NCBI GenBank assembly: GCA_026984135.1
Contig: JALSSR010000199.1
Location: 1-41,474, forward strand
Direction: 5' to 3'
Source of the DNA: Bacteroidales bacterium
GTDB taxonomy: Bacteria > Bacteroidota > Bacteroidia > Bacteroidales > JAADJA01
Length of the DNA stretch: 41,474 bases
Notes under the pieces: generated by a model
The model's input: the letters and a program-made list of their open reading frames with translations, nothing else
Databases searched by the model: none
Told to the model about the DNA's origin: nothing
Made by a program: the position numbers and the translations under genes
Part shown: piece after piece, positions 5,971-34,764 of the stretch
Layout of the letters: each line of letters opens with the position of its first letter
Numbering within the stretch: the first letter of the stretch is position 1

Positions 5971-5973
5971 ATA

Positions 5974-6831
5974 ATGACTTATAAAGAGATACAAAACATA
6001 GCAAAGAAATTACAGATGGATGAAGCTGTCATTGATAAAGACTGGATGCTCGGTCATTTCCTCAATGCTATGTTTTCATTTTCCGATATTTCAGAAAACT
6101 TTGTATTTAAAGGCGGCACTTGTTTAAGGAAAAATTATTTTGCAGATTATCGCTTTTCGGAAGATTTGGACTTCACACTTTTGGACGAGTCGTTTGTGAT
6201 TGATGATGCATTTTTCAAAAAGATAATAATACAGGCAGAAAGGAACAGCGGAGCCAAATATTATTTAAAAAACATAAAATCGCAGAACTGTCAGGATATT
6301 CCTCAGGGTTATGAAGTTGCCGTCATATATTGGGGAGCTTTTCACAAACCCAATCAACCGGTTTTACCGGTTAACCGTTGGCAAACCAAAATAAAGCTGG
6401 ACATCAGTTTTTCGGAAAAAACGATAATGAAACCGGTTATAAAACCTATTTTTCATCCCTATTCCGATTCTGATAAAATCACAAGCAAAGTTCCGGCTTA
6501 TCCGTTAAACGAGATTACAGCCGAAAAACTTCGTTCGTTGATGCAACGAAACAGGCCTCGCGATATTTATGATTTGTATTATTTATCAGGAATAATTTCG
6601 CCGAAACAGCATCCACAAATTTTGAGTTTGCTAAAACAAAAATCGAAAAACAAAAACATTGATTGCTGTAACTATACCGATTTTATAGATGATAAAAAAT
6701 ACAAGAGCAATAAAAGGGCTTGGGAAAGCAGCCTTAATTATCATCTGCCAAAGGGCAAATTAGTTGATTATAACACAGCCTATTTAATAGTTGGACAATT
6801 TGTAAAGAATATTTTAAATCCAGAAATATGA
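5974..6831 (+). CDS. abiEii: AbiEii-type nucleotidyltransferase toxin
   Basis: The 285-residue protein is an AbiEii/COG2253 nucleotidyltransferase. It has the strand-turn motif FKGGTCLRK (residues 45-53) and the metal-binding motif RFSEDLDFTL (60-69), where Asp64 and Asp66 should hold the metals. The family's C-terminal signature is AEKLRSLMQRNRPRDIYDLYYL. Studied members (AbiEii, MenT) transfer nucleotides, blocking growth; some act on tRNA ends. All key residues appear present, so it is probably active. It starts 3 bases after abiEi. Its TGA (6829-6831) overlaps the ATG of cas5 (6828-6830), so toxin and a Cascade subunit are probably translationally coupled. Confidence 0.9.
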   Translation: MTYKEIQNIAKKLQMDEAVIDKDWMLGHFLNAMFSFSDISENFVFKGGTCLRKNYFADYRFSEDLDFTLLDESFVIDDAFFKKIIIQAERNSGAKYYLKNIKSQNCQDIPQGYEVAVIYWGAFHKPNQPVLPVNRWQTKIKLDISFSEKTIMKPVIKPIFHPYSDSDKITSKVPAYPLNEITAEKLRSLMQRNRPRDIYDLYYLSGIISPKQHPQILSLLKQKSKNKNIDCCNYTDFIDDKKYKSNKRAWESSLNYHLPKGKLVDYNTAYLIVGQFVKNILNPEI

Positions 6832-7613
6832 AAAAACTAATATCGTTTACCATAAAAGCTGAAAAGGGTTTTTTGAAAAAACCCGATATCAATGAGGGAA
6901 TTTATCTGACCTACAATATGCTTCATAAACCCGCATTGCTTGGTATTCTCGGAGCCATTATCGGTCTTGAAGGTTATCAAAAAAATGAAGAGTTGCCGGA
7001 ATATTACAAGAAATTAAAAGATATTCCTGTGGGCATTGCACCTGTTGGAGCAGAAAAAGGGAACTTTCAGAAAACGAAAATAACCTATAACAATACTACC
7101 GGAATGGCAAGCAACGAAGCCGGGGGTAATCTGATAATTACCGAGCAAACTCTGATAAAACCTGCCTACAAAATATATCTGCTTCTGGATTTGGAAGATG
7201 AAAACCAAAAGATACTGTACAACAACATCAAAGAGCAAAAAGCAGAGTACCTGCCCTATCTCGGTAAAAACGATTATTCGCTTTGGTGGGAAAAGGAGGA
7301 TGTTGTTGAATATGATGAGTGGCATCCATTTGAAAAAAACAAAAATTTCAGTATTTCGACTTTATTTAAAAAAGATGAAGCTATTGTAAATTACATTGCA
7401 AAAGCTATGGGGAGAAAAGCATTGGCACAACAGAAGAATAGCTTTAATTATTTTGAAAGATTACCAATTGATTTTAATAAAAAATTATATCAATACAATT
7501 ATGCGGATTTTGTTTTTTCAAATGTGATATTTGAAGAAGAAGTAAAAGTGAATTCAAGCAATCTTTACCAAGCTATAAAAGACGGGAAAACGGAAATCAT
7601 TTTTTTGTATTAA
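6828..7613 (+). CDS. cas5: Cas5, crRNA 5'-handle-binding Cascade subunit (type I-B)
   Basis: Cas5 caps the 5' handle of the crRNA in Cascade. The N-terminal region gives the call: ISFTIKAEKGFLKKPD (first RAMP strand), then TYNMLHKPALLGILGAIIGLEG, the Cas5 pattern 'T...PP...LLGlLgAilGl' (about 29-50). At 261 residues it has the usual size. It lacks an obvious Cas5d-type ribonuclease signature, as expected when Cas6 is present. Its start codon overlaps the stop of abiEii by 4 bases (ATGA), and cas3 begins 3 bases after its stop, so it depends on transcription through the toxin-antitoxin module or from further upstream. Confidence 0.87.
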   Translation: MKKLISFTIKAEKGFLKKPDINEGIYLTYNMLHKPALLGILGAIIGLEGYQKNEELPEYYKKLKDIPVGIAPVGAEKGNFQKTKITYNNTTGMASNEAGGNLIITEQTLIKPAYKIYLLLDLEDENQKILYNNIKEQKAEYLPYLGKNDYSLWWEKEDVVEYDEWHPFEKNKNFSISTLFKKDEAIVNYIAKAMGRKALAQQKNSFNYFERLPIDFNKKLYQYNYADFVFSNVIFEEEVKVNSSNLYQAIKDGKTEIIFLY

Positions 7614-7616
7614 GAT

Positions 7617-10349
7617 ATGATTGAAAAACATAAATATACTCGTGATGAACTAGAAAAGATAATCCATAATCAGCAAAATTATTTTGCGCATTTATCCAAT
7701 GACGGAAAAGAAAAGGAGACATTGATAGAGCATATTTTATTGGTGCAAGATTATTTTATAAAATTAGTTTCGGTTCATCAATTATATAATGTAATTGAAA
7801 ATCTGATTGCCGGAATTATTGAAAATAAAGACATTCAGGAATTTATAAAAGAGTTATTCGTTAAGTCTGTTGCGGTTCACGATTTCGGGAAAGTAAATCC
7901 CGAATTTCAAAGTCAAAAAATGGATAATTCCATAAAAAAAATTAACCACAACTTGTCATCGGGACATTCATTGATAAGCGGCTACATCTTTTCATTGATT
8001 GGTGAACAAATAGCCAAAAAATATAATTTCTCAGAAGAGCAAGAAACATTGATTGATTTTTTATGCCTATCTTTCTCATATCCTATTGTGAAGCATCATT
8101 TGTCAAAATTGGAATCCTTTGCAAACGATTTAAAGTATTCTGAAAATATTGGAGACTTGAAGTTATTTACATCATTTTTTGAAGGTTTTGATGATGAGGA
8201 TTTTGTTAATGAAATCAATGAGTTTGTATTTCAAAACTCATCAATGATAGTTGAGGATGAAGAAAGTAAAAAAAGTATTACTGATTCCTTCCCTCTTTTC
8301 GCCCTGCTAAAACTAAACTATTCACTGCTAACTGCTTCCGATTATCTTGCCACAACCCATTTTATGAATAATTGGGGTACTGAAATAATGACTGATTTTG
8401 GTGTGTTTGATGAGGTTTTGAAAAAGAAAATCATCCATCAGGTTGAAACATCAACATCATACAACAGAAAAACTTACAATGAATTGGAAAATTATAAATT
8501 AGACTTTCCAACAGAGAAAAGTAATACCAACCTAAATAAGCTTCGCCAAAACTTAGCGGTTGAGACAATAAATGGTATCAGAAATAATCTTGACAAAAAT
8601 CTGTTTTATATCGAAGCCCCTACCGGAGGCGGCAAAACAAACTTGTCGATGCTGGTACTTGCCGAGTTTTTAAGAAATGATATTGACACAGGCGAAAATA
8701 ACATCACGAAAGTGTTTTATGTTTTTCCGTTTACAACACTTATTACCCAAACATTTAGATCATTAAAAGAAACCTTGGGACTTAAAGATGATGAAATTGT
8801 TCAAATTCATTCAAAAGCAGGGTTTTCGCAAAAGGGGACGGATGACAAATACGGAAGAGACAAACTCAATATTATCGATTATCAGTTTGTAAATTATCCT
8901 ATAGCTCTTCTTTCGCATATTAAGTTTTTCGACATTCTAAAATCAAATCGTAAATCGGCAAACTACCTGATGCATCGTCTGGCAAATTCTATAGTAATCA
9001 TTGATGAGTTGCAAACCTATTCACCTAGCGAATGGGATAAGGTAATCTACTTCATCAATAAATATGCAAAATATTTCAATATCAAATTTATTTTGATGTC
9101 AGCAACTTTGCCAAAAATTGATGAGCTGCTTTCTGAAAAAGGAAAAGAAGAGGGTTTTGAAAAAGAAGATTTTGTTAAACTCAATCAGAATAAAGACAAT
9201 TATTTTCAAAACCAAAACTTTGCAGAACGGATAGAATTTGATTTTTCAATGATAAATAATCAGGACTTTGATAAAAAAGATAAAGACAATTTTTTGAAAA
9301 ATCTTTGGGCAAAATTAGTTGAAGAATCGGAAAAATATAAAAGACAAAGCAAGGAAAAAAGAGTACATACGATTATTGAATTCATTTTCAAAAAAACAGC
9401 TGCTAAATTTATCGGGATTGCAAATAAGAATAAAAGTTTGTTTGATGAAGTCTTTATCCTTTCGGGAACTATACTTGAACCAAGAAGAAAGGAAGTTATT
9501 AATAAACTTAAAAGCGATGAATACAAAAGAAAAAATATACTCTTAATTACGACACAAGTAGTTGAAGCCGGCGTCGATATTGATATGGATTTGGGATTTA
9601 AAGACGCTTCGCTTGTTGATTCGGATGAACAACTGGCCGGTAGAATAAACAGAAATGTAAATAAACCGAAATGCAAACTATTTCTTTTTGATTACGATGA
9701 TGCCAAAACCATTTACGGAAAAGATTACCGCTACAAAGAAATTAAAGAAAAGTTGACAACCGAAGATTACAAAGAAATACTTCAAAAGAAAGATTTTGAC
9801 AAACTGTACAACCTGGTAATGAATCATATCAGGGAGTTCAACCAACAGGAGGCATACACCGATACTTTACCTGAATATTTAAAATCAATTAAAAATCTCG
9901 ATTTTGAAACGGTAAACAAAGACTTTCGGCTAATAAGCAATGCCATTCAAACTACTTCCATTTTTATTCCTGTGAATATTCCTGTTCAGATACCGGACAG
10001 TATGGAGAAAAACTTTTCGGACGAAGAACTTAATTTCCTGAAAGAAAAGATGAAATATAAAGATGAGGACTTTGTTTCAGGCGAAAAAGTTTGGGAATTA
10101 TATTGTGAAATTATTGAGAATAAAGATGATGATTTTACCAAACAAAAAGTACAGAAAGTAATAATGCAAGGTTTGGTTTCAAAATTCTCAATTTCAGTAA
10201 GTACTTATTCAAAAGAGTTTATGGCTATGGAAGGCAGAGGAAGCGGAGAAGAGAAATACGGATTTTATAAATTAAACTATTTTGATGAGGTTTATGATTA
10301 TAGAACAGGCATAAAAGCAAAAGAATTGGATTCGGCAATATTATTTTAA
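7617..10349 (+). CDS. cas3: Cas3 HD nuclease-helicase
   Basis: Cas3 is recruited by target-bound Cascade to unwind and degrade DNA. The 910-residue protein joins both activities. The N-terminal HD nuclease shows His39, HD at 88-89 (VAVHDFGKVNPEFQ), His111/His117, HH at 160-161 and Asp242 (SDYLATT). The superfamily 2 helicase has Walker A APTGGGKT (about 334-341), motif II DELQ (463-466), motif III SAT (495-497), motif V-like TTQVVEAGVDID (645-656) and motif VI EQLAGRINRN (671-680). Every catalytic element looks intact, so interference should be functional. The gene lies 3 bases after cas5 and 3 bases before cas4. Confidence 0.95.
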   Translation: MIEKHKYTRDELEKIIHNQQNYFAHLSNDGKEKETLIEHILLVQDYFIKLVSVHQLYNVIENLIAGIIENKDIQEFIKELFVKSVAVHDFGKVNPEFQSQKMDNSIKKINHNLSSGHSLISGYIFSLIGEQIAKKYNFSEEQETLIDFLCLSFSYPIVKHHLSKLESFANDLKYSENIGDLKLFTSFFEGFDDEDFVNEINEFVFQNSSMIVEDEESKKSITDSFPLFALLKLNYSLLTASDYLATTHFMNNWGTEIMTDFGVFDEVLKKKIIHQVETSTSYNRKTYNELENYKLDFPTEKSNTNLNKLRQNLAVETINGIRNNLDKNLFYIEAPTGGGKTNLSMLVLAEFLRNDIDTGENNITKVFYVFPFTTLITQTFRSLKETLGLKDDEIVQIHSKAGFSQKGTDDKYGRDKLNIIDYQFVNYPIALLSHIKFFDILKSNRKSANYLMHRLANSIVIIDELQTYSPSEWDKVIYFINKYAKYFNIKFILMSATLPKIDELLSEKGKEEGFEKEDFVKLNQNKDNYFQNQNFAERIEFDFSMINNQDFDKKDKDNFLKNLWAKLVEESEKYKRQSKEKRVHTIIEFIFKKTAAKFIGIANKNKSLFDEVFILSGTILEPRRKEVINKLKSDEYKRKNILLITTQVVEAGVDIDMDLGFKDASLVDSDEQLAGRINRNVNKPKCKLFLFDYDDAKTIYGKDYRYKEIKEKLTTEDYKEILQKKDFDKLYNLVMNHIREFNQQEAYTDTLPEYLKSIKNLDFETVNKDFRLISNAIQTTSIFIPVNIPVQIPDSMEKNFSDEELNFLKEKMKYKDEDFVSGEKVWELYCEIIENKDDDFTKQKVQKVIMQGLVSKFSISVSTYSKEFMAMEGRGSGEEKYGFYKLNYFDEVYDYRTGIKAKELDSAILF

Positions 10350-10352
10350 AAT

Positions 10353-10856
10353 ATGCAAATTACAGGTACACATATCAATTATTATTTCTCTTGCCGGCGG
10401 CAGCTCTGGCTTTTTGCCAATTCGATACAAATGGAGCATACAAACGATACGGTTTATGAGGGTAAGTTGATTCACGAAACTTCCTATCCGCAAAGACCAT
10501 CTAAATACGAGGAGTTGGAATTGGAAGGTATTAAGATTGATTTTTATGACGCCAAAAACAAAGTTATCCATGAAATAAAGAAGTCGAGAAAACTTCACAA
10601 AGCCCATGTATGGCAGGTAAAATATTATATCCATATTCTGGAGAAAAACGGAATTGATGGTGTGAGCGGGATTTTAGAATACCCCAAAGAAAGAAAAATC
10701 GAAGAAGTCTATTTGTCATCAATAGATAAAAGAAAGATTAAGGAAATTGAAAATGATATTATGAATATAATAGCTTCGGATAAAGTACCTGATGTGGAGA
10801 AGAAAAAAAGATGTAAGAATTGTAGTTATTATGATTTTTGTTTTGTAAGCGAATAA
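10353..10856 (+). CDS. cas4: Cas4 iron-sulfur exonuclease for spacer acquisition
   Basis: Cas4 trims prespacers and selects those with a correct PAM, working with Cas1-Cas2. The 167-residue protein has the four cluster cysteines: Cys14 (FSCRRQLW) and Cys154, Cys157, Cys163 ([13 protein letters not shown]). The RecB-type nuclease residues are visible as His41, Asp63 (IKIDFYD), Glu74-x-Lys76 (HEIKKS) and the QxxxY motif (WQVKYY, 88-92). Its stop codon shares one base with the cas1 start (TAATG), implying coupled translation of the adaptation genes. Confidence 0.94.
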
Positions 10857-11860
10857 TGAAAAAAACCTACTACCTATTCAATCCGGGTCGCCTCTCGCGT
10901 AAAGACAACACGCTGAAATTCACTCCTGTTGACGAAAACGGCAAGGAAGGAAAACCCCGTTATCTGCCTGTGGAACAAGTTGATCAGCTATACTGTTTCG
11001 GTTCTGTTGATGCCAACTCGGCTATGTATAACTTTCTTGGTAAGAATGAAATAGCGGTTCACTTCTTCGATTATTACGAAAACTACACCGGTTCGTTTTT
11101 ATCACGCGATTATTTGCTTTCCGGAAAAATGCTCGTGAAACAAATAGAAGCGTACACCAACCGGAAAAAGCGTATTGTGATAGCTCAAAAATTGATTGAC
11201 GGAGCGAGTTTCAATATGTTGAAAAATCTGAAATATTATGATAACCGCGGCAAAGATTTACGACCTATTATAGATAAAATCAATGAGTTGCGAGATTCGA
11301 TATATACTACATTGCAAGTTGACGAATTGATGGGAATAGAAGGAAACATCCGTATGAAGTATTACGAAGCTTTTGACTTGATTCTGAAAGATTTTGTAAT
11401 GGGAGGCCGGACAAAGCAACCACCGTTAAATCCGGTAAATTCCCTGATATCTTTTGGAAATATGATGTGTTACTCTCAGGTAATCAGGAGCATACACCAG
11501 ACTCAACTAAATCCTACGGTGAGTTATTTGCATTCGCCAGGAGAGCGTCGCTATTCGTTGGCTTTGGATATTGCCGAAATTTTCAAACCGATTTTGGTTG
11601 ACAGGGTAATATTTAAAATTCTGAATAAAAGGGAGTTGCGGGAAAATGATTTCGATTGTAAAGTAAATCGCATATTAATAAAAGATTCGGGGAAGAAGAA
11701 ATTTATACAAGCATATGAAAATAGGTTGCAAGAAACCATAATGCACAGAAAGTTAAATAAAAAAGTAAGCTACAAGCATATGATAAAGCTTGAAATCTAC
11801 AAATTGCAAAAGCATCTTCTTGGAATAGAGGAATATAAACCCTTAAAAATATGGTGGTAA
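10856..11860 (+). CDS. cas1: Cas1 CRISPR integrase
   Basis: Cas1 inserts new spacers at the leader-proximal repeat. The start at 10856 is chosen because it gives the typical N terminus ([20 protein letters not shown]) and overlaps the cas4 stop by one base; an ATG 18 bases upstream lies inside cas4. From this start the protein is 334 residues. The metal-binding residues appear as Glu162 (MGIEGNIR), His226 (YLHSPGERR) and Asp238/Glu241 ([10 protein letters not shown]). Type I-B Cas1 proteins have this length and these motifs. It is followed by a 61-base gap before cas2. Confidence 0.95.
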
Positions 11861-12185: not shown

Positions 12186-12407
12186 AATAGCAATCAAATA
12201 GTTGTCGAACCACCCAAAAACAGAACAAACGAAACAATAAAATAGTTTGGCTGTTCTTTGACATCTTGAAAATCAATAAATTACAGGGTTGTCGAACCTA
12301 AGGGGAAAATATATTAATACATATTGACGCTTTTAAATAAAAAAAATCATTATTTTTGCAAACATAAAACAGTGCCGTTCAACGGTTTAAAAATCGGGTG
12401 TCAACGG
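12186..12407 (+). promoter_or_regulatory. CRISPR leader
   Basis: This AT-rich stretch lies between cas2 and the first repeat, and the array reads away from it (the repeats end in the crRNA handle ATTGAAAY on the plus strand). It contains an 11-base direct repeat GTTGTCGAACC at 12201-12211 and 12288-12298, a TTCTTTGACATCTTG segment near 12254-12268, and a promoter box TATTTTTG at 12351-12358. That box would start transcription about 45 bases before repeat 1. A short inverted sequence CCGTTCAACGG lies near 12375-12385. The direct repeats may be protein-binding sites for spacer integration, which is inference. Confidence 0.8.
12351..12358 (+). promoter_or_regulatory. Array promoter box TATTTTTG
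   Basis: TATTTTTG matches TAnnTTTG and lies in the leader 49 bases before repeat 1. A TTGAC lies at 12324-12328, somewhat further upstream than the ideal spacing. Confidence 0.5.
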
Positions 12408-15013
12408 CTTTTAATCGCACCATTTTGGAATTGAAATTTTGATGTTGTTAATTCTTTTTTTGCTTTTTCGATTCTTTTAATCGCACCATTTTGGAATTGA
12501 AATACAGATCGTTATTATCGAAAACGGCGAAAAAAGAGTCTTTTAATCGCACCATTTTGGAATTGAAATAAGGTTAAGACTTTAAAAGATATATGTATGA
12601 AGAATCTTTTAATCGCACCATTTTGGAATTGAAATGATAAATCTGTAATTTGAATATCTCCATATTTTTTAGCTTTTAATCGCACCATTTTGGAATTGAA
12701 ATTAAAAAAGCAGCCTTGAAGTAATATCCATATAATCACTTTTAATCGCACCATTTTGGAATTGAAATACACTGATATAATTTGAATATCTCCATATTTT
12801 TTAGCTTTTAATCGCACCATTTTGGAATTGAAATTTGCTGCAACCGCAATTGAAACGGCAGCGCAAATATCTTTTAATCGCACCATTTTGGAATTGAAAT
12901 AATCATAGTCGTTATAACTATGTATATGGCAATATTCTTTTAATCGCACCATTTTGGAATTGAAATTCAATAGCAAAAAAAACAATTGAAATGCTTTCAT
13001 CGCTTTTAATCGCACCATTTTGGAATTGAAATTTGCTGCAACCGCAATTGAAACGGCAGCGCAAATATCTTTTAATCGCACCATTTTGGAATTGAAATAT
13101 TTCTTCCGGGGTCAGTTCATCAAATCTAACCCAACTTTTAATCGCACCATTTTGGAATTGAAATAGATTATAACCTGATTTGTTTGCAAATGAAAGTGAT
13201 CTTTTAATCGCACCATTTTGGAATTGAAATCTGTAAATTGAATTCTACTATAATCAGCAACACTATCTTTTAATCGCACCATTTTGGAATTGAAATTCCT
13301 GAATAAATGATAACTTCGCCTTACTTTCTTTTCTTTTAATCGCACCATTTTGGAATTGAAATGGAGTTACAACTGATTGAAAATGCACAATTTGATTCTT
13401 TTAATCGCACCATTTTGGAATTGAAATGCCATAACCTGGGTTGTTAAGACGGTATCCCTTGAGCTTTTAATCGCACCATTTTGGAATTGAAATGTGTATT
13501 GCCAACTTCTGCAAGTGTAACATCTTCACTTTTAATCGCACCATTTTGGAATTGAAATAAAATGAAACGGTGATGTGCGGCAATCCGTCGCGCTCCTTTT
13601 AATCGCACCATTTTGGAATTGAAATTATTGTCTATCAACGTCTCTGTGCTTGCTTTCGGTGCTTTTAATCGCACCATTTTGGAATTGAAATATAGCTTCT
13701 ACAGGTCGTAATCCTGTATTGTAAAGTCTTTTAATCGCACCATTTTGGAATTGAAATTACATAACTTATCCGGCTAAAATATTTTTAATTTCCCTTTTAA
13801 TCGCACCATTTTGGAATTGAAATTCAAAAGAATCCGGCGCATATCCTATTCCGTATTGACTTTTAATCGCACCATTTTGGAATTGAAATCAAAGTGCAGG
13901 ACACATTTCTTTCAACCGCACCCACCTTTTAATCGCACCATTTTGGAATTGAAATGACTTTCTTCAACCACATCCATATTTTTTTCATTATCTTTTAATC
14001 GCACCATTTTGGAATTGAAACTTGTTTAACTGGATGGTGCGGCGGTTGTATATTAACTTTTAATCGCACCATTTTGGAATTGAAACTACTTTGAGGAAAA
14101 TTTTTCAATCAATTCCAAAAAACTTTTAATCGCACCATTTTGGAATTGAAACATGATTACGGACGGGAACGCTGCCATTGTCAATCAAGCTTTTAATCGC
14201 ACCATTTTGGAATTGAAACTACAGATTTGATAATGCTTCTGAAATTGAATGTGTTACTTTTAATCGCACCATTTTGGAATTGAAACAACCAATATCCGAT
14301 TGGGACATCGAAAAATTCTGATACTTTTAATCGCACCATTTTGGAATTGAAACGACAAATATCCAAGATTATCATTATTTTTTAGATTTCTTTTAATCGC
14401 ACCATTTTGGAATTGAAACTTGACAATGTCGTTACGGATTATCGGGAATATCAACTTTTAATCGCACCATTTTGGAATTGAAACCACCAAGCCTCATAGC
14501 TTTATTACCATATTTAGAATCTTTTAATCGCACCATTTTGGAATTGAAACGTTTTAACGTTGCTCCCGTGTCTAATGAACTTTCTGCTTTTAATCGCACC
14601 ATTTTGGAATTGAAACAAATAAATATGTAGAAATTTCTTTATTACCCTGATGCTTTTAATCGCACCATTTTGGAATTGAAACAAATAAATATGTAGAAAT
14701 TTCTTTATTACCCTGATGCTTTTAATCGCACCATTTTGGAATTGAAACGTGCCTCCGCAGTGTCAAGGTAATTTTTATTAATACCTTTTAATCGCACCAT
14801 TTTGGAATTGAAACTTATAAGGATCGCGGATGCCGCTTTTTGCCCGCCAACTTTTAATCGCACCATTTTGGAATTGAAACCGGCTCTCAATCTCTTTTTG
14901 AAAAGCCTGAAGGCTGCTTTTAATCGCACCATTTTGGAATTGAAACTTTTAACCCTCTTCACCTTATTTAAATCAAGTAAAACCTTTTAATCGCACCATT
15001 TTGGAATTGAAAC
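12408..15013 (+). CRISPR. Type I-B CRISPR array, 40 repeats and 39 spacers
   Basis: I located 40 copies of a 30-base repeat that begins CTTTTAATCGCACC, continues ATTTTGGA and ends ATTGAAAT or ATTGAAAC. Spacers are 35-37 bases, mostly 36. Repeats 1-24 (12408 to 13955) end in T and repeats 25-40 (13992 to 15013) end in C; otherwise the copies look identical. Spacer 7 (12835-12870) equals spacer 10 (13033-13068). Spacer 34 (14617-14652) equals spacer 35 (14683-14718). Spacers 4 (12636-12672) and 6 (12769-12804) share their last 27 bases. The plus-strand direction follows from the I-B handle ATTGAAAY at the repeat 3' end and from the leader beside cas2. Confidence 0.98.
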
Positions 15014-15134
15014 CTAAAAATATAAAACCTCCTAACTTCCCAACTTCATAACTTTCAAACTTCATGACTTTCAAACTTTCAAACTTCCCAACCTCCTAAC
15101 ATCCAAATCAATAACACTTTAATCGCACATTTTA
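15014..15134. repeat. Array trailer: low-complexity tract and degenerate repeat
   Basis: After repeat 40 come about 75 bases of pyrimidine-rich units of the type AACTTTCAAACTTC (15027-15104). Then at 15117-15134 a sequence CTTTAATCGCACATTTTA resembles the first 20 bases of the CRISPR repeat with two single-base deletions. The latter looks like a decayed repeat marking an older array end. It reaches the stop codon of the adjacent broken SGNH gene. Confidence 0.6.
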
Positions 15135-16648: not shown

Positions 16649-18595
16649 TTATATCAATGTTACGTCACATATTACTTCCAGCAAGGCGGGTCCATTGTGG
16701 TCGCTGATCTTTTGCATTGCTTTTTCGAGATCTTCCCTTTTTTCAACCCTGATTCCAAGAGCACCGCAATTTTCGGCAAATTCTGCAAAATTTGGATTGT
16801 GCATTGCCGTTTGCCATACTTTAAGTTCTGAGGAGCGTTGCTCTTTGGAGATTTTACCAAGTTCCGAATTATTGATAAGGATATGCTTTATGTTCATATT
16901 ATACCTGACAAGGGTCGTAAGCTCGGCAAGATACTGACCAAGGCCGCCGTCTCCTGAAACCGACCATACAGGACGACTGTCTTTTACGGCAGCCCAGGCA
17001 CCCATAGCAGCAGGCAAAGCAAAACCGATAGAGCCGAGGTAGCCTGACATCAGTATGGATTGGTTTTTACACTCAAAATATCGTCCGAAAGAATAGGCAT
17101 TGTTTCCAACATCAACAGCAATCACTGCATTGTCCGGCGTAATTTTATTCATTGCTTCAAAAACTGCAATAGAACCGATACCTTGTCCACGGTCATCTTT
17201 AAGTCTGTTTTCCTTTTCCGTACTCCATATCTTTTTCCTGACGGCTATTTCATCCCTTTGGTCAATAGTATCTGTTTTTCCGGTTAATTTTTTTTTCAAA
17301 AGTTTAGAGGTAACCCCCACTTCACCCCACAATGCCGCATCTATTTTATGAAATTTACTTAAAGCCAAAGGGTCGAAATCAATCTGTATCAGTGGCTTTT
17401 TAGGAGTAATACCGGTATGGTTCGAGAATGATGCCCCGAATACTATCAACATGTCACTTTCGTTCATAAACCAGGAAGCGACAGGAGTTCCGCTACGTCC
17501 CAATACTCCGCAAGCAAGCGGATGATTATCGGATATAAGTCCCTTACCTTTAAAGGTTGTGATAACCGGAGCGTTGAGGTTTTCTGCAAGTCCTTTGATA
17601 TTTTTCATACTGTATCTCGCCCCATGGCCAACAATAATTACCGGTCTTTTGGATTCTTTAATCATTCCGATAGCTTTCTCAACCATATCTTCAGGAGGTG
17701 ATATGTTAAACGGCGTTATCCTGTTCTCCGGGGTTTGGGCTTCTTCTTCGGCAGGCTTAAATGCAAATTGTACCTCGTCGGGAAAAGTTATATGCGAAAC
17801 ATCGCGTTTTACAAGTGAATGCTTTATAGCAAGACTCATTAGTTCGGAATGTTTGCTTTCTTTTTGAACTGCTATATTAAAGTTAGCAACAGTTTGAAAT
17901 GCTTTCACCAGATTCACCTCCTGAAAAGCTCCGGTTCCAACTACCTGGGTATTTATTTGCCCGGTCAATGCCAGTAGCGGAACCCTGTCAACCTTTGCAT
18001 CCCACATTCCGGTGAACATATTTGTGGCTCCGGGCCCGGCAATGCCAAAACAGGCTGCCGGTTTTCCGGTCAGCTTGGCATAACCGCTTGCAGCAAAGGC
18101 GGCAGCTCCTTCGTGGCGTATTCCGAAGTACTGCAACTTCCCTTTCTCTTCTAATCGTCGCATGGCATCAGCTACTCCAAGGTTACTGTGTCCCACCATT
18201 CCGAAAACTGTGTTCACACCCCAGTTAACCATTGTCTCCATCATAACATCCGAAATGGTTGGCTTATGTGGTTCTTCTTCTAAAATTCCAACGTAAAAAG
18301 CTCCGTTTTCTTCTTTCACCTCATAAGCATCAACACCATCGTCAAAACCGGGAGCCTTTCCTGAGCAGGGATGATAGTCCCAGCCGTGCCAGGGGCAACG
18401 CAAGATTCCGTTTTCAATGCTGCCTTCCCCCAAAGGCCCGCCCTGATGTGGGCAGCGATTGTCAAGAGCACAGATTTTCCCTTCGAAATGAGAAAGAGCA
18501 ATCTGGATTTTTCCGGCAGTGACTGTAGTTACGCGATTTTCGGACAATTCTGTTTTGTCATCAAGGACTTTGTACCATACTTTTTTTTTATTCAT
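16649..18595 (-). CDS. Rieske [2Fe-2S] domain fused to a thiamine diphosphate enzyme
   Basis: The 648-residue protein joins two modules. Residues 1-105 are a Rieske ferredoxin domain with CPH (48-50) and CPWH (67-70) ligands. Residues about 112-648 are a three-domain ThDP enzyme of the acetolactate synthase/pyruvate oxidase group: the catalytic glutamate Glu162 (GIRHEGAAAFAASGYA), a central domain (PVIIVGHGAR, 318-326), and the cofactor motif starting SGDGG (547-551) and ending INN (574-576). ThDP enzymes of this group decarboxylate 2-oxoacids or transfer two-carbon units; the substrate cannot be read from sequence. The Rieske domain suggests electron transfer to or from the active site. It is the fifth gene of the eanB-led operon, 18 bases after its neighbour. 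Confidence 0.9.
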   Translation of the reverse strand: MNKKKVWYKVLDDKTELSENRVTTVTAGKIQIALSHFEGKICALDNRCPHQGGPLGEGSIENGILRCPWHGWDYHPCSGKAPGFDDGVDAYEVKEENGAFYVGILEEEPHKPTISDVMMETMVNWGVNTVFGMVGHSNLGVADAMRRLEEKGKLQYFGIRHEGAAAFAASGYAKLTGKPAACFGIAGPGATNMFTGMWDAKVDRVPLLALTGQINTQVVGTGAFQEVNLVKAFQTVANFNIAVQKESKHSELMSLAIKHSLVKRDVSHITFPDEVQFAFKPAEEEAQTPENRITPFNISPPEDMVEKAIGMIKESKRPVIIVGHGARYSMKNIKGLAENLNAPVITTFKGKGLISDNHPLACGVLGRSGTPVASWFMNESDMLIVFGASFSNHTGITPKKPLIQIDFDPLALSKFHKIDAALWGEVGVTSKLLKKKLTGKTDTIDQRDEIAVRKKIWSTEKENRLKDDRGQGIGSIAVFEAMNKITPDNAVIAVDVGNNAYSFGRYFECKNQSILMSGYLGSIGFALPAAMGAWAAVKDSRPVWSVSGDGGLGQYLAELTTLVRYNMNIKHILINNSELGKISKEQRSSELKVWQTAMHNPNFAEFAENCGALGIRVEKREDLEKAMQKISDHNGPALLEVICDVTLI

Positions 18596-18613: not shown

Positions 18614-19474
18614 TTATAAAACGCTTTTTAATGTATCTATCCCCGTTTGAAAAAATGATTTTACAAGTTTGTGCTGGTTCACGGCCTTATTTTCCTTTAA
18701 TATTTCAGAAAGTTTTAATACGGCACCATTCCAGTCGGGCATCATCCATTTACCCACTTCCGAGGGTTTGATATTTTCAATACCTTTTACAGGTTTTTCC
18801 GACCAAAAACTAAGATAAAAATATGGTTCGTCAATCATACTGTCGGGTATTGCCAGGCCCAGTCCGAAGGATTTTGACAAATCACCTTTTTTATTATGTG
18901 CCAATGGTATAAAAGTGCCGGTGTCGAAGTGATGAGGCCAGATACGTACCGGTTCCGCTTGTTCAAAATCCTTTGCCACCTCAATAAGTACAACTTTTGC
19001 ATTATGACGGTATAATGTGTTTTCAATGAAGTATTTTTTGTTACTAACCGAAAAAACATCTCCCCTGTCAAGTTTGTGTTCAGGTATTTCGTAATGCATT
19101 TCATTACTGAATCCCGACACATCCACTCCCAAATTTTTCAGATTACGTTTTATCTCTTCAAAAACTGCAATTTGTGTTTTGCCGGCAAGGGTGATTTCCG
19201 TTTTTGTTTCATTTTTATCATCAAGAATGAAAATTTTCATTTCGGACAACTGCAAGCCCAGACGCACACCCTCAGGTAAAAGGTTTCCAAACAACATCTC
19301 TTTTTCAGGGATATATTCCATATTGGTATTGCTGTCGTCGGGTTGCCGGGGTATCAGATGGCGACCTGCCATTGCTAAAAATTGAGCTGCGTGATGTTGT
19401 TGCTGAAGAGCATCACTTAATTCCGTATTGAACGGTAGCGATAATAATCTCCACTTGTTATCAAGTCTTTTCAT
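18614..19474 (-). CDS. Uncharacterised protein with WPHHFDTG motif
   Basis: I cannot assign a named family with confidence. The 286-residue protein has no signal peptide or membrane segment. Visible landmarks are QQQHHAAQFLAMAGRHLIP (about 25-43), a charged middle region, the motif RIWPHHFDTGTFIPLA (about 178-193), SFGLGLAIPDSMIDEPYFYLSFW, and WMMPDWNGAVLKLSEIL near the end. The two His-rich motifs could bind a metal or a substrate. The layout loosely recalls DUF5996-type proteins, but this is weak. It lies 10 bases after the DUF427 gene and 18 before the Rieske-ThDP gene, so it probably serves the same pathway as EanA/EanB. Confidence 0.8.
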   Translation of the reverse strand: MKRLDNKWRLLSLPFNTELSDALQQQHHAAQFLAMAGRHLIPRQPDDSNTNMEYIPEKEMLFGNLLPEGVRLGLQLSEMKIFILDDKNETKTEITLAGKTQIAVFEEIKRNLKNLGVDVSGFSNEMHYEIPEHKLDRGDVFSVSNKKYFIENTLYRHNAKVVLIEVAKDFEQAEPVRIWPHHFDTGTFIPLAHNKKGDLSKSFGLGLAIPDSMIDEPYFYLSFWSEKPVKGIENIKPSEVGKWMMPDWNGAVLKLSEILKENKAVNQHKLVKSFFQTGIDTLKSVL

Positions 19475-19484
19475 TATGGTTAGT

Positions 19485-19766
19485 TTATTCGGTTATTTTT
19501 ACACCGTGCCAAAAGGCAACATAGTTTTTGATTTTTTCGGCAAGGCCTGAAGGCTCAGGATAGTACCAGGCTGCATCCTTATTAACTTTTCCGGCAACAA
19601 CAACATCAAAATACGATGCTGTTCCTTTCCAGTGACAAACCGTATGTGTCTGACTATCCGATAAATATCCTTTTATTACAGATTCAGGAGGGAAGTATTG
19701 GTTTCCTTCAATGTTAACTGTTTCGTTGCTTTCGGCAATCACCGTATCATTCCATATCGCTTTCAT
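19485..19766 (-). CDS. DUF427 protein
   Basis: From the start chosen here (19766) the protein has 93 residues. It shows the DUF427 layout: MKAIWNDTVIAES at the N terminus, GNQYFPPESV, the central HTVCHWKGTASYFDVV, and a tail with AWYYPEPSGLAEKIKNYVAFWHGV. DUF427 proteins are small beta-barrels of unknown function found in many bacteria, sometimes beside methyltransferases. An ATG at 19787 would overlap the end of the methyltransferase gene and add an unlikely leader, so the internal ATG 5 bases after that gene's stop is preferred. Confidence 0.88.
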   Translation of the reverse strand: MKAIWNDTVIAESNETVNIEGNQYFPPESVIKGYLSDSQTHTVCHWKGTASYFDVVVAGKVNKDAAWYYPEPSGLAEKIKNYVAFWHGVKITE

Positions 19767-19771: not shown

Positions 19772-20734
19772 TTATTTTAATTTCCAAAGAGAATTCATAA
19801 AGAATAGTCGTTTATCAAAGAAATTCCTTACAACCTGAAAACCTGATCTTTCGGCTAATTCATTTATCATCACCGTATCGTATTTTTGAGAAATCTCCAT
19901 AAATATGGCTTCCCCTTCCTCAAATGAAACTGTCAGATTCAGTTCTTTAATTTCAACGGACTGGTTTTTAATACTTATCAATTCACTCTTAGCCGTTCCG
20001 GTTTCAGAATCATAGACCTCACGATGTTTGAAGTTTTGTAAAATAAAGTCCGCATCCAACTCGTCATTAATTCTTTGCAGAAGATTCAAATTGAATGCTG
20101 CCGTATGTCCGTGTGGATCATTGTAGGCTTTAAGAATGATATCGGAGTCTTTTTTCATATCAAAGCCTATAAACAATAAATCCCGGGGATTCATCACCTC
20201 TTTTAGTTTCGATAAAAAAGCGAGTGTATCGGGGTAGTTGTAATTCCCGATATTAGATCCGAGGAACAATAATATCTTTTTTGTTTGTCCGTTAAATTCT
20301 TTTTCATTCAGAAGCTCGAAATAATCGCCGACTTTACCAATGATATTCAATTCCGGAAGTTTAAGTTCCAGGTCAATGACCAGATTACTGACGGCGTCTT
20401 CGGAGATGTCAATGGGAATATATTTAAAATCACAATTTTTTTCGAGTAAATATGATAACAGTATCCTTGTTTTCATACCGTCGCCCGCGCCAAGTTCAAT
20501 CAATTCAAATTCATCACCTGATTCCGTAAAGGATTCAAAGATATGTTGTTTTTGTGTCTCGAAAATTTCCAATTCGCAATCGGTCAGATAATACTCCGGC
20601 ATTCGCATAATATCCTGAAATATCCTGCTTCCGGTGTCATCATAAAAATATTTTGAAGATAGGGATTTTGTCCCTGATGTTAACCCGGTTTGTACATCTT
20701 TAGCAAAGTCGGTATTTGTTTCAATCTGTTCCAT
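19772..20734 (-). CDS. eanA: L-histidine N-alpha-trimethyltransferase (EgtD/EanA-like)
   Basis: EgtD-type enzymes methylate histidine three times with S-adenosylmethionine to give hercynine, the precursor of ergothioneine. The 320-residue protein has the family N terminus SLSSKYFYDDTGSRIFQ (24-40) and MPEYYLTDCE (45-54). It has the SAM motif ELGAGDGMKTRILL (80-93), FLGSNIGNY (157-165), and the substrate-loop sequence TAAFNLNLL (211-219). No oxygen-dependent sulfoxide synthase (EgtB) gene is adjacent; instead a rhodanese-type EanB-like gene lies 21 bases upstream in the same operon. That pairing matches the EanA/EanB arrangement known from anaerobic green sulfur bacteria, hence the symbol. Confidence 0.9.
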   Translation of the reverse strand: MEQIETNTDFAKDVQTGLTSGTKSLSSKYFYDDTGSRIFQDIMRMPEYYLTDCELEIFETQKQHIFESFTESGDEFELIELGAGDGMKTRILLSYLLEKNCDFKYIPIDISEDAVSNLVIDLELKLPELNIIGKVGDYFELLNEKEFNGQTKKILLFLGSNIGNYNYPDTLAFLSKLKEVMNPRDLLFIGFDMKKDSDIILKAYNDPHGHTAAFNLNLLQRINDELDADFILQNFKHREVYDSETGTAKSELISIKNQSVEIKELNLTVSFEEGEAIFMEISQKYDTVMINELAERSGFQVVRNFFDKRLFFMNSLWKLK

Positions 20735-20755
20735 AATGTTATCAATATTTTGTTG

Positions 20756-22036
20756 TTACTCAGCCGGGATTCCGGTTTCATAAGGATTCCGAGGGTCGTT
20801 ACTCCACTCGAACCAGCCACCGTCAAAAACCGAGACTTTCGGCCAACCCATAAGCCAGGCATTCAACCAGGCTTCACTACCGCGCCACCCGGTACCACAG
20901 TAAAATGCCAGATGCTTACCGGGAGTTATACCGGCACTTTCCCAGTTTGCGGCTATTTCCTGAAATTCTCTTGTTGTGTGGTCAACATTCCTGTAGTTTT
21001 CCATATGATATGCATCCGTTCCGCAATTACCGAATATAGCACCCGGGATTCTGCCCTTTTTTTCAATATAGTTGTATCCGCTTACCTCACTGATGTACTC
21101 GGGCCAGCTACGAACACAGACAAGGTCGGCATTCTCCGACTTTAACATCTCTTTTGCTTCAACAATATCCACTGCAAGCCCGGGATTTCCCGGAATTGAT
21201 GCTCCAAAATCCTTAACCGGATCTTTCGGCACATCCTCCGTACTTATCTCGAAACCTGCGTCTTTCCACGATTGAAAACCACCGTTGAGCACTCTAACAT
21301 CCTTAACTCCGGCATACATCAAAATAAAAGCCGACCTGATAGCCCCAATATGGCCGGCAGCACTCCCCGGAAAAGGATTATTGTTATCGGGATGCATAAA
21401 CTTGCCGTAAAGAATGACCGTAGTATCTGCCGTTATACCATGATTTTGCAGTGCCTCCTTTAATTCCTCGGGAGACCTCCGGTTCCAGGTTTCCGGTGAC
21501 TCCAGTGCGAGAGTGTCAATATCAACAGCTCCGGGAATATGTCCGGATAAGTAGGCACTCCTGTTTCGATAATGTGCATGCAAAATGATGAATTTGTCAT
21601 TATCGTAATGTACCGGCTTTTCACCTTTGAGAAGACTATTGACCCATACGGCCGGTACGAGATGCTCATATCTTTTAAGATAATCCACCGGCAAATCTTT
21701 ATCAGACAGCCATTCATCCTGAAAATGATTGTAAACTCTTACATCGGAATATCCGGAGCGGATGAATAACCTTGCAACCTTCTCGGCTTCACCGGAAGAA
21801 TAGCCGTAAACGACCAAAGGTTTGCCGGGTGTTATCCCTTTTGACCTCACTATTTCAATCCAGTCTATATAGTTTGTCCATTTAAGCGGCAGGCTTTTCG
21901 CCCCTTTGATATGTCCGCCTCTTACTTCATTTTCAAGCTCCCACCCGTTATAGGCATCAACAGGGCGGACATCAATAACCGTCCCTTCTTCATCTTTTAT
22001 AAAGTTTGAGAGTTCTTTTGTTGAGATTTGATTCAT
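20756..22036 (-). CDS. eanB: Multi-domain rhodanese sulfurtransferase, EanB-like ergothioneine synthase
   Basis: The 426-residue protein contains three rhodanese-like domains (about 1-120, 125-265 and 285-426). Only the last has an active-site loop with a cysteine, FYCGTGWRGSE, Cys380 preceded by Tyr379. EanB of Chlorobium limicola, which turns hercynine into ergothioneine using polysulfide without oxygen, has its catalytic Cys412 after Tyr411 and a key Tyr353. Shifting by 32 places these at Cys380, Tyr379 and Tyr321 here, and all three residues match. The earlier domains have lost the cysteine, as in EanB. It heads the operon and the EgtD-like gene follows directly. A plain thiosulfate or mercaptopyruvate sulfurtransferase is the alternative. 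Confidence 0.8.
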   Translation of the reverse strand: MNQISTKELSNFIKDEEGTVIDVRPVDAYNGWELENEVRGGHIKGAKSLPLKWTNYIDWIEIVRSKGITPGKPLVVYGYSSGEAEKVARLFIRSGYSDVRVYNHFQDEWLSDKDLPVDYLKRYEHLVPAVWVNSLLKGEKPVHYDNDKFIILHAHYRNRSAYLSGHIPGAVDIDTLALESPETWNRRSPEELKEALQNHGITADTTVILYGKFMHPDNNNPFPGSAAGHIGAIRSAFILMYAGVKDVRVLNGGFQSWKDAGFEISTEDVPKDPVKDFGASIPGNPGLAVDIVEAKEMLKSENADLVCVRSWPEYISEVSGYNYIEKKGRIPGAIFGNCGTDAYHMENYRNVDHTTREFQEIAANWESAGITPGKHLAFYCGTGWRGSEAWLNAWLMGWPKVSVFDGGWFEWSNDPRNPYETGIPAE

Positions 22037-30968: not shown

Positions 30969-33900
30969 TTATTCGGAATAATCCATTTTAGTCATACGTT
31001 CGTATGTTTTGTATCTCCATTTTGCATTCTCCTCGGCAGCCTTGAAAAGTTCGGCAGCTTCGGCAGGAAATGCCTTCATTAGCGACGTAAATCTCACTTC
31101 ACGTTTCAGGAAGTCCTGGAATGTTGACCAATCGGGTTCTTTCGAGTCGAGAATAAACGGATTCTTGCCCTCCTCTTCAAGAAGCGGATTGTAGCGATAC
31201 AATGTCCAGAATCCGGATTCAACAGCCAACTTTTCTTCTTCCGAAGCCTTGTTCATTCCAAACCTTAAGCCATGAGCTATACAGGGTGAATAAGCAATTA
31301 TCAGAGAAGGTCCCGGATATGCTTCGGCTTCACGTATAGCTTTCAGTGTCTGCGACTGACTGGCACCCATTGAGATGTGAGCAACATAAACATAACCGTA
31401 TGTTGTGGCTATCAATCCCAGTTCTTTTTTCCTGATTTTCTTACCTGAGGCGGCAAACTTGGCAACAGCTCCGATAGGTGTTGACTTTGACGCCTGACCT
31501 CCCGTATTGGAGTAAACCTCGGTGTCAAGAACAAGAATATTGATGTCGGCACCTGATGCAATAACGTGGTCAAGTCCGCCATATCCAATGTCGTAAGCCC
31601 AGCCGTCACCTCCAATAGCCCAAATTGATTTTTTAACGAGATACTGTTTCAGCTTCAAAATCTCTTTTGCAACGGGAGCCTTTTCTTTCTCAAGAGCAGG
31701 AATCAGCTTGTTTGTAACTTCAATTGATTTATCCGCATTGTTCATATTTTCAAGCCACTCGTCGAACAAAGCCTTTGTACCGGATGAAACATCGGTTGCG
31801 TTTCTCATCATATTGGCAATTGTTTTTCTGAAATTATCAATTGCGGCAACCATTCCGAATCCGTACTCGGCATTATCTTCAAACAGTGAATTTGCCCAGG
31901 CAGGCCCTTGTCCGCTCTCTTTGTGAGTACAATATGGTGTTGCAGGTGCGGAACCGCCGTAAATTGACGAACAGCCTGTTGCATTTGCAATTATCATTCT
32001 TTCACCGAAAAGTTGAGTTACCAGTTTTATATAAGGCGTTTCGCCACAACCTGCACAAGCTCCGGAGAACTCAAAAAGAGGCTGTGCAAACTGGCTGTTT
32101 TTAACCGATTTGTCTTTCGGAACAACATCATCTTTATAAGTTACCTGTTCGTGCATATAGTTCCAACGGTCGGCTTCATCAAGCTGAGTATCAAGCGGCT
32201 TCATAATTAGCGACTTCTCTTTTGATGGGCAAACATCGGCACATACACCGCAGCCAGTACAATCGAGAACACTCACCTGAATTCTGTATTTAAGTCCGTT
32301 GAAAGTTTTTACCGGCTTGGCATCCAACAAGTCCGTACCTTCAGGAACATTCTCAGCTTCTTTCTCGTCAAGCAGGAAGGGACGTATTGCGGCATGAGGA
32401 CAAACATACGAACATTGATTACACTGAATACAGTTATCAGCTATCCATTCGGGAACATCAACAGCTACACCCCGTTTTTCGTATGCTGTGGTGCCGGCCG
32501 GGAATGTACCGTCTTCCCTGCCCTTGAAAGCGGAAACGGGAAGATCGTCACCTTTAAGTTTGTTAATAGGTTCGAATACATTTTTGATAAAGTCGGGCAG
32601 ATCTCTTGTATCTTTCTTCTCGGTTACTTTAATTTTTGCCCACTCCTCGGGTATTTCAACCTTGATAACCTCACCACCTTTATCAACGGCAGCATAGTTA
32701 AGATTAACAATCATTTCACCTTTTTTGCCGTATGATTTGTTAATTGCCGTTTTCATCTCCTCCACAGCAAGATCGTAAGGAATCACTTCCGCAACTTTAA
32801 AGAATGCGGATTGCATAATCGTATTAGTACGATTTCCAAGACCGATCTCTTTTGCAATTTTTGTTGCATTTATTATATAGAAAGAGATATTATTTTCTGC
32901 AAGATACTTTTTATAATAATCGGGAAGATGTTTTTTTGTTTCTTCCTCATCCCAAATACTGTTAAGAAGGAATGTTCCGCCTTTTTTCAACCCTTTCAGC
33001 ATATCATACTTTTGCAGGTATGCCGACACGTGGCAAGCCACAAAATCGGGTGTGCTTACCAGATAAGTTGATTTAATCGGAACATCACCAAATCTGAGGT
33101 GAGAAATTGTTATGCCACCTGATTTCTTTGAGTCGTAGGCAAAATAAGCCTGAGCATATTTGTCGGTTGAATTACCGATTATCTTAATTGAGTTTTTATT
33201 TGCTCCGACAGTTCCGTCAGCACCAAGTCCGTAGAATTTGGCTTCAAAAGTACCTTCGGGTACAACGCTTATTTCAGGTAATAACGGTAATGATGAATTC
33301 TTCACATCATCGTTAATACTGATAGTAAATCTGTTTTTAGGTTCATCGAGTTTGAGATTATCAAAAACAGAAAGGATGTGAGCAGGTGTTGTATCTTTGG
33401 AACTTAAACCGTATCTTCCACCAACAATAACAGGTGCGTTTTCTTTATCATAAAAAATATCTCTAACATCAAGATAAAGGGGCTCACCTGTTGCACCAAT
33501 CTCTTTTGTGCGGTCAAGTACGGCAATTTTCTTAACACTTTTCGGGAGAACTTTGAAGAAATATTTTTCCGAAAAAGGTCTGTAAAGATGAACTGAAATC
33601 AATCCGACTTTTTCACCTTTGGCAGCAAGATAATCAATGACCTCTTTAATTGTATTAGTGACAGAACCCATTGCAACAATGATATTCTCCGCATCGTCGG
33701 CTCCGTAATAATCAAAAGGATGGTATTCGCGTCCCGTAATCTTTTCAATCTCACGCATATATTCCTCAACAACATCGGGTACAGGATCATAGAATCTGTC
33801 GGCAGCTTCTCTTGCCTGGAAATAAATATCGGGATTTTGAGCAGTACCTCTCGTAACAGGATGCTCCGGATTAAGAGCGTTATCCCTGAAATGCTGTAAA

Positions 33901-34502
33901 GCTTTCTCGTCAAGCAAAGGAGCCAGATCTTCCATTTGCATCTCCTCAACTTTCTGGATTTCGTGAGAAGTACGGAATCCGTCAAAGAAATGAATAAACG
34001 GTATTCTTGTTTTTATTGCTGTAAGGTGGGCAATTCCGGCAAGGTCCATTATCTCCTGAGCACTGGCGGTAGCAAGCATTGCAAAACCTGTATTCCGGGT
34101 TGACATAACATCGCTGTGGTCACCGAAAATAGAAAGAGCCTGAGCAGCAAGACTCCTTGCACTCACGTGAAAAACACCCGGCAATAACTCACCGGAAATC
34201 TTGTACATATTAGGAATCATCAGCAGCAATCCCTGGGAAGCAGTAAAAGTACTTGTCAAAGCACCTGCCTGTAACGAACCGTGAACAGCACCCGAAGCAC
34301 CGGCTTCCGATTGCATTTCCTTCACCTCAACAACCTCGTTAAAAATATTTTTTCTTCCGTGCGCAGCCCATTGGTCAATATATTCGGCCATATCGGATGA
34401 CGGTGTAATAGGATAAATACAAGCAACCTCACTAAACATATATGCAATATGCGAAGCAGCATAATTACCCTCACAAGTAATAAATTTTTTCTCTTTTGCC
34501 AT
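30969..34502 (-). CDS. nifJ: Pyruvate:ferredoxin (flavodoxin) oxidoreductase, single chain
   Basis: PFOR converts pyruvate, CoA and oxidised ferredoxin to acetyl-CoA, CO2 and reduced ferredoxin, a central step in anaerobes. From the ATG at 34502 the protein has 1177 residues, the full single-chain length. The N-terminal domain is recognisable from the pyruvate-binding loop IYPITPSSDMAEYIDQW and ASQGLLLMIPNMYK. Two 4Fe-4S motifs, CIQCNQCSYVCPHAA and CTGCGVCADVCPS, precede the ThDP domain with ACAGCGETPY, ATGCSSIYGG and IGGDGWAYDIGYGG. An upstream ATG at 34532 adds ten residues and is less likely. Expression is divergent from the dihydroorotate-dehydrogenase-like gene. Confidence 0.96.
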   Translation of the reverse strand: MAKEKKFITCEGNYAASHIAYMFSEVACIYPITPSSDMAEYIDQWAAHGRKNIFNEVVEVKEMQSEAGASGAVHGSLQAGALTSTFTASQGLLLMIPNMYKISGELLPGVFHVSARSLAAQALSIFGDHSDVMSTRNTGFAMLATASAQEIMDLAGIAHLTAIKTRIPFIHFFDGFRTSHEIQKVEEMQMEDLAPLLDEKALQHFRDNALNPEHPVTRGTAQNPDIYFQAREAADRFYDPVPDVVEEYMREIEKITGREYHPFDYYGADDAENIIVAMGSVTNTIKEVIDYLAAKGEKVGLISVHLYRPFSEKYFFKVLPKSVKKIAVLDRTKEIGATGEPLYLDVRDIFYDKENAPVIVGGRYGLSSKDTTPAHILSVFDNLKLDEPKNRFTISINDDVKNSSLPLLPEISVVPEGTFEAKFYGLGADGTVGANKNSIKIIGNSTDKYAQAYFAYDSKKSGGITISHLRFGDVPIKSTYLVSTPDFVACHVSAYLQKYDMLKGLKKGGTFLLNSIWDEEETKKHLPDYYKKYLAENNISFYIINATKIAKEIGLGNRTNTIMQSAFFKVAEVIPYDLAVEEMKTAINKSYGKKGEMIVNLNYAAVDKGGEVIKVEIPEEWAKIKVTEKKDTRDLPDFIKNVFEPINKLKGDDLPVSAFKGREDGTFPAGTTAYEKRGVAVDVPEWIADNCIQCNQCSYVCPHAAIRPFLLDEKEAENVPEGTDLLDAKPVKTFNGLKYRIQVSVLDCTGCGVCADVCPSKEKSLIMKPLDTQLDEADRWNYMHEQVTYKDDVVPKDKSVKNSQFAQPLFEFSGACAGCGETPYIKLVTQLFGERMIIANATGCSSIYGGSAPATPYCTHKESGQGPAWANSLFEDNAEYGFGMVAAIDNFRKTIANMMRNATDVSSGTKALFDEWLENMNNADKSIEVTNKLIPALEKEKAPVAKEILKLKQYLVKKSIWAIGGDGWAYDIGYGGLDHVIASGADINILVLDTEVYSNTGGQASKSTPIGAVAKFAASGKKIRKKELGLIATTYGYVYVAHISMGASQSQTLKAIREAEAYPGPSLIIAYSPCIAHGLRFGMNKASEEEKLAVESGFWTLYRYNPLLEEEGKNPFILDSKEPDWSTFQDFLKREVRFTSLMKAFPAEAAELFKAAEENAKWRYKTYERMTKMDYSE

Positions 34503-34764
34503 TGTTATATAATTTAAAATCCTAAAACTCAATTTTTTATTAAAAACCCATCGGATTTTTGACGCGGCGAATTTAATAATTATTACATTAAATCTGCCTT
34601 TTCACTCTTTATTTAGAGTTGATTTAGATAGCATTATAAATAAAGAAAAATTATTTTTCCTATAAAAAAAGTTTATACATTTGCTTTTTGCATTTGGATA
34701 TTAATATCCGATTAGTGTAAATTATTATTTTTTAGACATTTAACAATTTTTATACTTTTAAATT
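34503..34764. other. Divergent promoter region of nifJ and the DHOD-like gene
   Basis: These 262 AT-rich bases hold no gene. A plus-strand TACATTTG at 34676-34683 matches TAnnTTTG, about 82 bases before the ATG at 34765. I found no convincing minus-strand box for nifJ. Confidence 0.35.

Follow-up and report, generated by a model that had tools for sequence, protein, structure and literature searches.

Five adjacent genes in the window, the whole 41,474-nucleotide stretch of Bacteroidales DNA that we analysed, very likely form an operon whose EanA/EanB core makes ergothioneine without oxygen in a host that can probably respire oxygen, and whose DUF427 protein is a partner of the EgtD-type methyltransferase irrespective of the sulfur route. 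The core belongs to a known pathway, one that is common in the host's group; of more interest are its occurrence in oxygen-respiring lineages, the swapping of EanB and EgtB, and a DUF427 partner that does not depend on the route. By orthology to the Chlorobium limicola enzymes, EanA would trimethylate histidine to hercynine; in EanB, Cys380 would receive sulfane sulfur from polysulfide, forming a persulfide, and the sulfur would then pass to C2 of the hercynine imidazole ring. These steps were shown in vitro for C. limicola EanA and EanB (PMC9516567, PMC7278568, PMC6282198, and crystal structures). A point against our explanation is that the major thiols found in Chlorobiaceae did not include ergothioneine (PMC6282198).

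Arrangement of the genes

The five genes lie on the minus strand in the order EanB, EanA, DUF427, 286-aa protein and Rieske-ThDP (Table 1). A gap of 21 bp separates the EanB and EanA ORFs. The three same-strand genes 3' of EanA, which were absent from an earlier note on this DNA, follow at gaps of 5, 10 and 18 bp, and 158 bp separate Rieske-ThDP from the next gene. The tight spacing suggests that all five are read as one transcript.

Table 1. Genes of the putative ergothioneine operon (positions in the window)
Feature	Position	Strand	Remarks
EanB orthologue, hercynine (trimethylhistidine) sulfurtransferase	20756-22036	(-)	426 aa, intact ORF; catalytic C380 codon 20897-20899
EanA/EgtD, histidine N-alpha-methyltransferase (hercynine-making)	19772-20734	(-)	320 aa, intact ORF; PF10017
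DUF427 (PF04248) beta-tent protein	19485-19766	(-)	93 aa from ATG 19766; invariant Cys44 at 19635-19637
286-aa protein, motif WPHHFDTG	18614-19474	(-)	family without Pfam/NCBIfam match
Rieske [2Fe-2S] domain fused to pyruvate-oxidase-like ThDP enzyme	16649-18595	(-)	PF00355 + PF02776/00205/02775; closes tight gene run

Identity of the sulfurtransferase

The earlier note had read the first two genes as an EanA/EanB pair, a reading now backed by sequence, phylogeny and genome context, and had named an alignment with EanB and a phylogeny as checks. A profile search found three PF00581 (rhodanese) stretches in the EanB ORF. Residues 3-424 of the product aligned without gaps to chain positions 38-459 of C. 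limicola EanB (PDB 6ktv; E=1.4e-204, 683 bits), with about 68% identity over 422 residues. The next family after EanB was that of E. coli YnjE, which scored 285 bits; identity to YnjE-type sulfurtransferases was about 38%. Residues Y321, Y379 and C380 fall on 6ktv chain positions 356, 414 and 415, which correspond to native positions 353, 411 and 412 on the assumption of a three-residue addition in the construct. This agrees with the constant shift of 32 by which the earlier note had equated them with Tyr353, Tyr411 and Cys412 of EanB.

The protein contains three cysteines (C307, C338 and C380), of which C380 lies within the CGTGWR loop. The equivalents of C380, Y379 and Y321 are invariant across 119 EanB sequences. 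The feature is necessary for EanB but does not diagnose it: the Cys and the two Tyr also occur in E. coli YnjE and in several other relatives. Taken as proof of EanB, the residue argument of the earlier note therefore fails. Twelve other positions, among them H153, H155, P223, A227, G228, F335, C338, Y343, N347 and G386, are invariant or almost so in EanB but do not occur in seven YnjE-like proteins. A quick maximum-likelihood tree (long outgroup branches, no bootstrap, archaeal and Firmicutes EanB left out) placed 61 EanB rows including those of the window and C. limicola on one side, apart from the YnjE-like sulfurtransferases (SH-aLRT 99), with C. limicola EanB nested inside the sampled Bacteroidota EanB diversity.

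We considered whether the rhodanese could be an ordinary YnjE-type thiosulfate or 3-mercaptopyruvate sulfurtransferase that adjoins EgtD by accident. The EanB family is related to YnjE, and YnjE (PDB 3ipo, 2wlr) shares the three rhodanese domains, the Cys/Tyr/Tyr triad and the CGTGWR loop with the window protein. However, the difference in bit scores, the separate clade, the twelve EanB-only positions, the genome-wide co-occurrence of EanB with EgtD (see below for the p value and its relatedness bias) and a natural EanB-EanA fusion in genome G012 make this barely credible, and we rejected it. E. coli ynjE adjoins an ABC transporter, unlike the window eanB, which lies beside EgtD. By sequence, the protein is thus an EanB orthologue, an assignment carried by overall identity, phylogeny and the twelve EanB-only positions, not by the triad.

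The methyltransferase

The EanA product matched PF10017 (E=5e-95) and solved EgtD structures (E=1e-45). Its score against TIGR03438, the EgtD equivalog model, was a near miss (280.1 bits versus a cut-off of 290.9), and the EanA/EgtD name therefore rests on other features. Assuming chain numbering one below native, the protein keeps Y56, N166, Y206, E282 and S284, which we take to be the histidine-binding set of EgtD. These matches and residues bear out the earlier description of an EgtD-type methyltransferase beside the rhodanese. It is the sole methyltransferase of this type in the genome.

The C. limicola system (Clim_1148/Clim_1149; PDB 6ktv, 6h98) has the same two enzymes, the same catalytic triad and an adjacent gene pair. 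Unlike in C. limicola, the window pair is followed by DUF427, the 286-aa protein and Rieske-ThDP, and the host encodes oxygen reductases. As reported in PMC11767532, a functional EanA from a 'Bacteroidales bacterium', a member of the same broad group, supports ergothioneine production in Bacillus licheniformis; the EanB-N tested there comes from Anaerobacillus, not Bacteroidota, and is 38% identical to C. limicola EanB. The metallopterin ergothioneine synthase MES (PMC9516567) acts on the same substrate by an oxygen-independent sulfurisation, but is unrelated to EanB.

Distribution of EanB and its gene neighbours

EanB was found in 32 of 247 sampled genomes of the order, leaving 215 others for comparison. 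EgtD was present in 31/32 EanB genomes versus 13/215 others (Fisher p about 6e-28), DUF427 in 19/32 versus 3/215 (p 4e-17) and homologues of the 286-aa protein in 11/32 versus 0/215 (p 3e-11); all three p values overstate the co-occurrence, because the genomes are related. In one EanB genome (G032), EgtD was not detected.

A scan of public genomes gave at least 581 relatives, and the best 80 of these come mostly from Bacteroidota and close relatives, with isolates of Salinimicrobium, Saccharicrinis, Labilibacter and Sunxiuqinia among them. EanB homologues are also known from anaerobic bacteria and archaea (PMC9516567) and from methanogens (PMC7278568). The earlier note was thus right to place the pathway outside green sulfur bacteria; as a novelty the claim does not stand, given these reports, the relatives counted here and the Bacteroidales EanA of PMC11767532. 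In the best 80 EanB loci, many of which sit on short contigs, we found EanA in 57, DUF427 in 35, a Rieske-glutamate-synthase-like gene in 16, the 286-aa family in 14 and Rieske-ThDP in 8. The EanB-EanA fusion mentioned above is a single 676-aa frame (contig C693, 1732-3759; L190) near a contig end, with an incomplete EanA part. One EanB-EgtD contig is labelled Patescibacteria (L104) and is probably a mis-binned Bacteroidota contig.

Instead of ergothioneine, the pair might make a similar imidazole compound containing sulfur or selenium; or ergothioneine might be only an intermediate that the downstream genes convert. The recurrence of conserved DUF427, 286-aa, Rieske-ThDP and Rieske-glutamate-synthase-like genes with EanA/EanB would fit such an outcome, but the active-site residues of EanB are unchanged and many EanA/EanB loci have none of these genes nearby. 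We regard this alternative as improbable and retain ergothioneine as the predicted end product.

Exchange of the EanB and EgtB routes

The oxygen-dependent pathway uses the same methyltransferase family, which also lies beside DUF427 in several genomes, but inserts sulfur by means of the iron sulfoxide synthase EgtB and O2. The earlier note had reported no EgtB nearby; none was found in the window, and none above the family cut-off in the whole genome, where the best match scored 60 bits versus a cut-off of 360. We rejected a hidden EgtB elsewhere in the genome, since the FGE-sulfatase matches proved to be GldK, GldJ and one protein without a DinB domain that scored far below the EgtB cut-off.

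Of 47 EanB genomes, 44, including that of the window, had no EgtB above the cut-off; in the other three (G014, G131 and G233) EgtB adjoins an EgtD gene. In G233, EanB (C168:14184-15419) and an EgtD-EgtB pair (C168:30304-32395) both lie on a 43.6-kb contig (L186/L187) whose base composition is even, making a binning error unlikely. Unless this contig is an assembly chimera, the genome holds both the oxygen-independent and the oxygen-dependent route.

Within the window's genus, EanB occurs in G000 and G067, and an EgtD-EgtB pair without EanB in G172 (L269). The window EanA is 57.8% identical to the EgtD of G172 versus only 43.3% to the EanA of G067. The EanB-linked and EgtB-linked enzymes are intermingled in an EgtD tree, with seven changes of EanB linkage, at least three of them forced by well-supported branches. 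As judged from these sequences, a single methyltransferase family has traded EanB and EgtB as partners, even inside this genus.

Salinimicrobium EgtD clusters with flavobacterial-type EgtB-linked EgtD (SH-aLRT 99), and no EgtB above the cut-off was found in nine Salinimicrobium locus records from eight genomes (G639-G646; records checked were L087, L098, L099, L105, L106, L108, L118 and L131). EanB is the only sulfur-inserting route detected in the genes of these isolates, and because their EgtD groups with EgtB-linked enzymes and no EgtB was found, EanB has probably replaced EgtB there. Repeated partner swaps around one methyltransferase family bear on why the sulfur step was reinvented, a question raised in PMC9516567.

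Oxygen and the host

The earlier note had placed the pathway in an anaerobe. The window's genome encodes CtaD (aa3-type; 687 bits, cut-off 671) and CcoNO (cbb3-type; 1173 bits, cut-off 1080), both above the family cut-offs, and pyruvate:ferredoxin oxidoreductase (PFOR) lies at window positions 30969-34532. The coexistence of both oxygen reductases with PFOR leaves that placement unsupported and makes a facultative or microaerobic life more likely. Across the order, PF00115 matches reaching E<=1e-100, where aa3/cbb3 proteins fall (nitric oxide reductases may account for weaker ones), were present in 20/32 EanB genomes versus 14/45 without EanB (Fisher p=0.01, relatedness ignored).

The 'anaerobic' ergothioneine route is not confined to anaerobes: it occurs in genomes that encode oxygen reductases, where it is often the sole route detected. 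The window's host can probably both respire oxygen and live without it, in which case the route would free ergothioneine synthesis from the oxygen supply and would not mark a strict anaerobe. Its value may lie in independence from oxygen under varying supply.

DUF427 as a partner of EgtD

The window DUF427 protein scored 108 bits against PF04248 (gathering score 22.1). Its predicted structure (pLDDT 96) best matched the DUF427 crystal structure 3djm (E about 6e-7), with which it shares the beta-tent fold and motif. MsrB and the cereblon ligand domain have the same fold, and DUF427 was reported mainly from bacteria and fungi (PMC4287342). The short DUF427 subfamily shows almost no variation at Cys44 and at many aromatic positions, whether or not its members are linked.

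In Salinimicrobium, EgtD is directly followed by DUF427 in all eight genomes examined (L174-L181), with EanB located elsewhere, as is also the case for the EgtD-DUF427 pairs in L257 and L258. EgtB, EgtD and DUF427 are adjacent in EanB-free genomes (L243, L249, L264). Among 49 DUF427 loci of EanB-free genomes, EgtB and/or EgtD were found within the 9 kb read in 8, from four families, versus a roughly estimated chance expectation of about 0.1 (9 kb in about 4 Mb, times 49), and were not found within that distance in the remaining 41. Within the order, an EgtD-family match is present in 21/22 genomes that carry DUF427. DUF427 occurs in 83/395 genomes of the phylum, and the control Deinobacterium chartae has DUF427 without EgtD. 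We rejected the idea that DUF427 is specific to EanB, given its frequency in the phylum and its position after EgtD in EgtB-carrying organisms as well. Judged by this linkage, the protein partners the EgtD/hercynine module under either sulfur route. A link between DUF427 and ergothioneine genes, in the sense of EgtD and DUF427 together, was not found in the open literature searched.

Similar neighbourhoods occur outside Bacteroidota, as egtB-DUF427-egtD in Sinorhizobium mexicanum (Proteobacteria) and as DUF427-'mercuric reductase'-sulfite-oxidase-like-egtB-egtD clusters with msrA/msrB in Achromobacter and Aquincola. Several Bacteroidota loci have a homologue of the MerA-like reductase beside DUF427 or EgtD (about 39-79% identical to the G223 query). 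On a clinical Klebsiella pneumoniae plasmid (L273) and related plasmids, the neighbours of DUF427 are glutaredoxin, TlpA-like and sulfite-oxidase-like genes; neither egtB nor egtD appears in the stretch shown.

From the fold class, the invariant Cys and the gene neighbours, it is a reasonable inference that DUF427 handles or recycles the betaine product, for example by binding or re-reducing ergothioneine, in some lineages perhaps with the adjacent flavoprotein disulfide reductase. The invariant W/Y/F residues could plausibly form an aromatic cage for the trimethylammonium group. Only tentatively do we propose the full scheme, in which a dedicated, route-independent DUF427 would bind hercynine or ergothioneine or, with the MerA-like flavoprotein reductase, restore the thiol, while EanB and EgtB would be interchangeable modules. 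If true, a beta-tent family of bacteria and fungi would acquire a function, and the pathway a missing recycling or binding step.

A serious competitor for the DUF427 part of our explanation, though we would not call it probable, is that the downstream genes, DUF427 included, are stress genes with no tie to the ergothioneine genes beyond shared regulation. DUF427 often stands alone, and the proteobacterial neighbourhoods also hold MsrA/MsrB, OsmC, TlpA and sulfite-oxidase-like genes, as such co-regulation would predict. The EgtD-DUF427 adjacency, however, survives a change or move of EgtB or EanB across Bacteroidota families, and this, together with the near-constant EgtD match in DUF427 genomes of the order, favours a partnership with EgtD.

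The 286-aa protein and Rieske fusions

The 286-aa protein had no Pfam or NCBIfam match at 1e-3, and a search of PDB sequences gave nothing usable. Its predicted structure (pLDDT 93) had no confident fold match in the PDB. In the order, the family was seen only in EanB genomes (11/11 carriers have EanB), and its gene follows EanA even where EanB lies elsewhere (G013). A conserved HHxD motif (H181-D184) offers a lead only; the WPHHFD motif is reminiscent of DUF5996, a link that no search match backs.

Outside the window, the Rieske-ThDP gene recurs in five of the examined regions from the order, and it lies near EanB in 8 of 80 named loci. A recurrent fusion of a Rieske domain with a glutamate-synthase-like FMN domain (about 537 aa) was observed beside 286-aa and Rieske-ThDP genes (L042, L061, L064, L055, L038, L148 and L125), so that one cluster can hold two distinct Rieske fusions, ThDP-type and glutamate-synthase-like.

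Other features of the window

A type I-B CRISPR-Cas operon (Cas6, Cas8b, Cas7, Cas5, Cas3, Cas4 and Cas1) occupies positions 1243-11860; its cas7 and cas5 genes are separated by an inserted AbiEi/AbiEii toxin-antitoxin pair (5203-6831). A repeat array at 12400-15019, with 66-bp spacing and roughly 40 units, fits a CRISPR array; it encloses the listed ORF 12515-13084, which is probably spurious.
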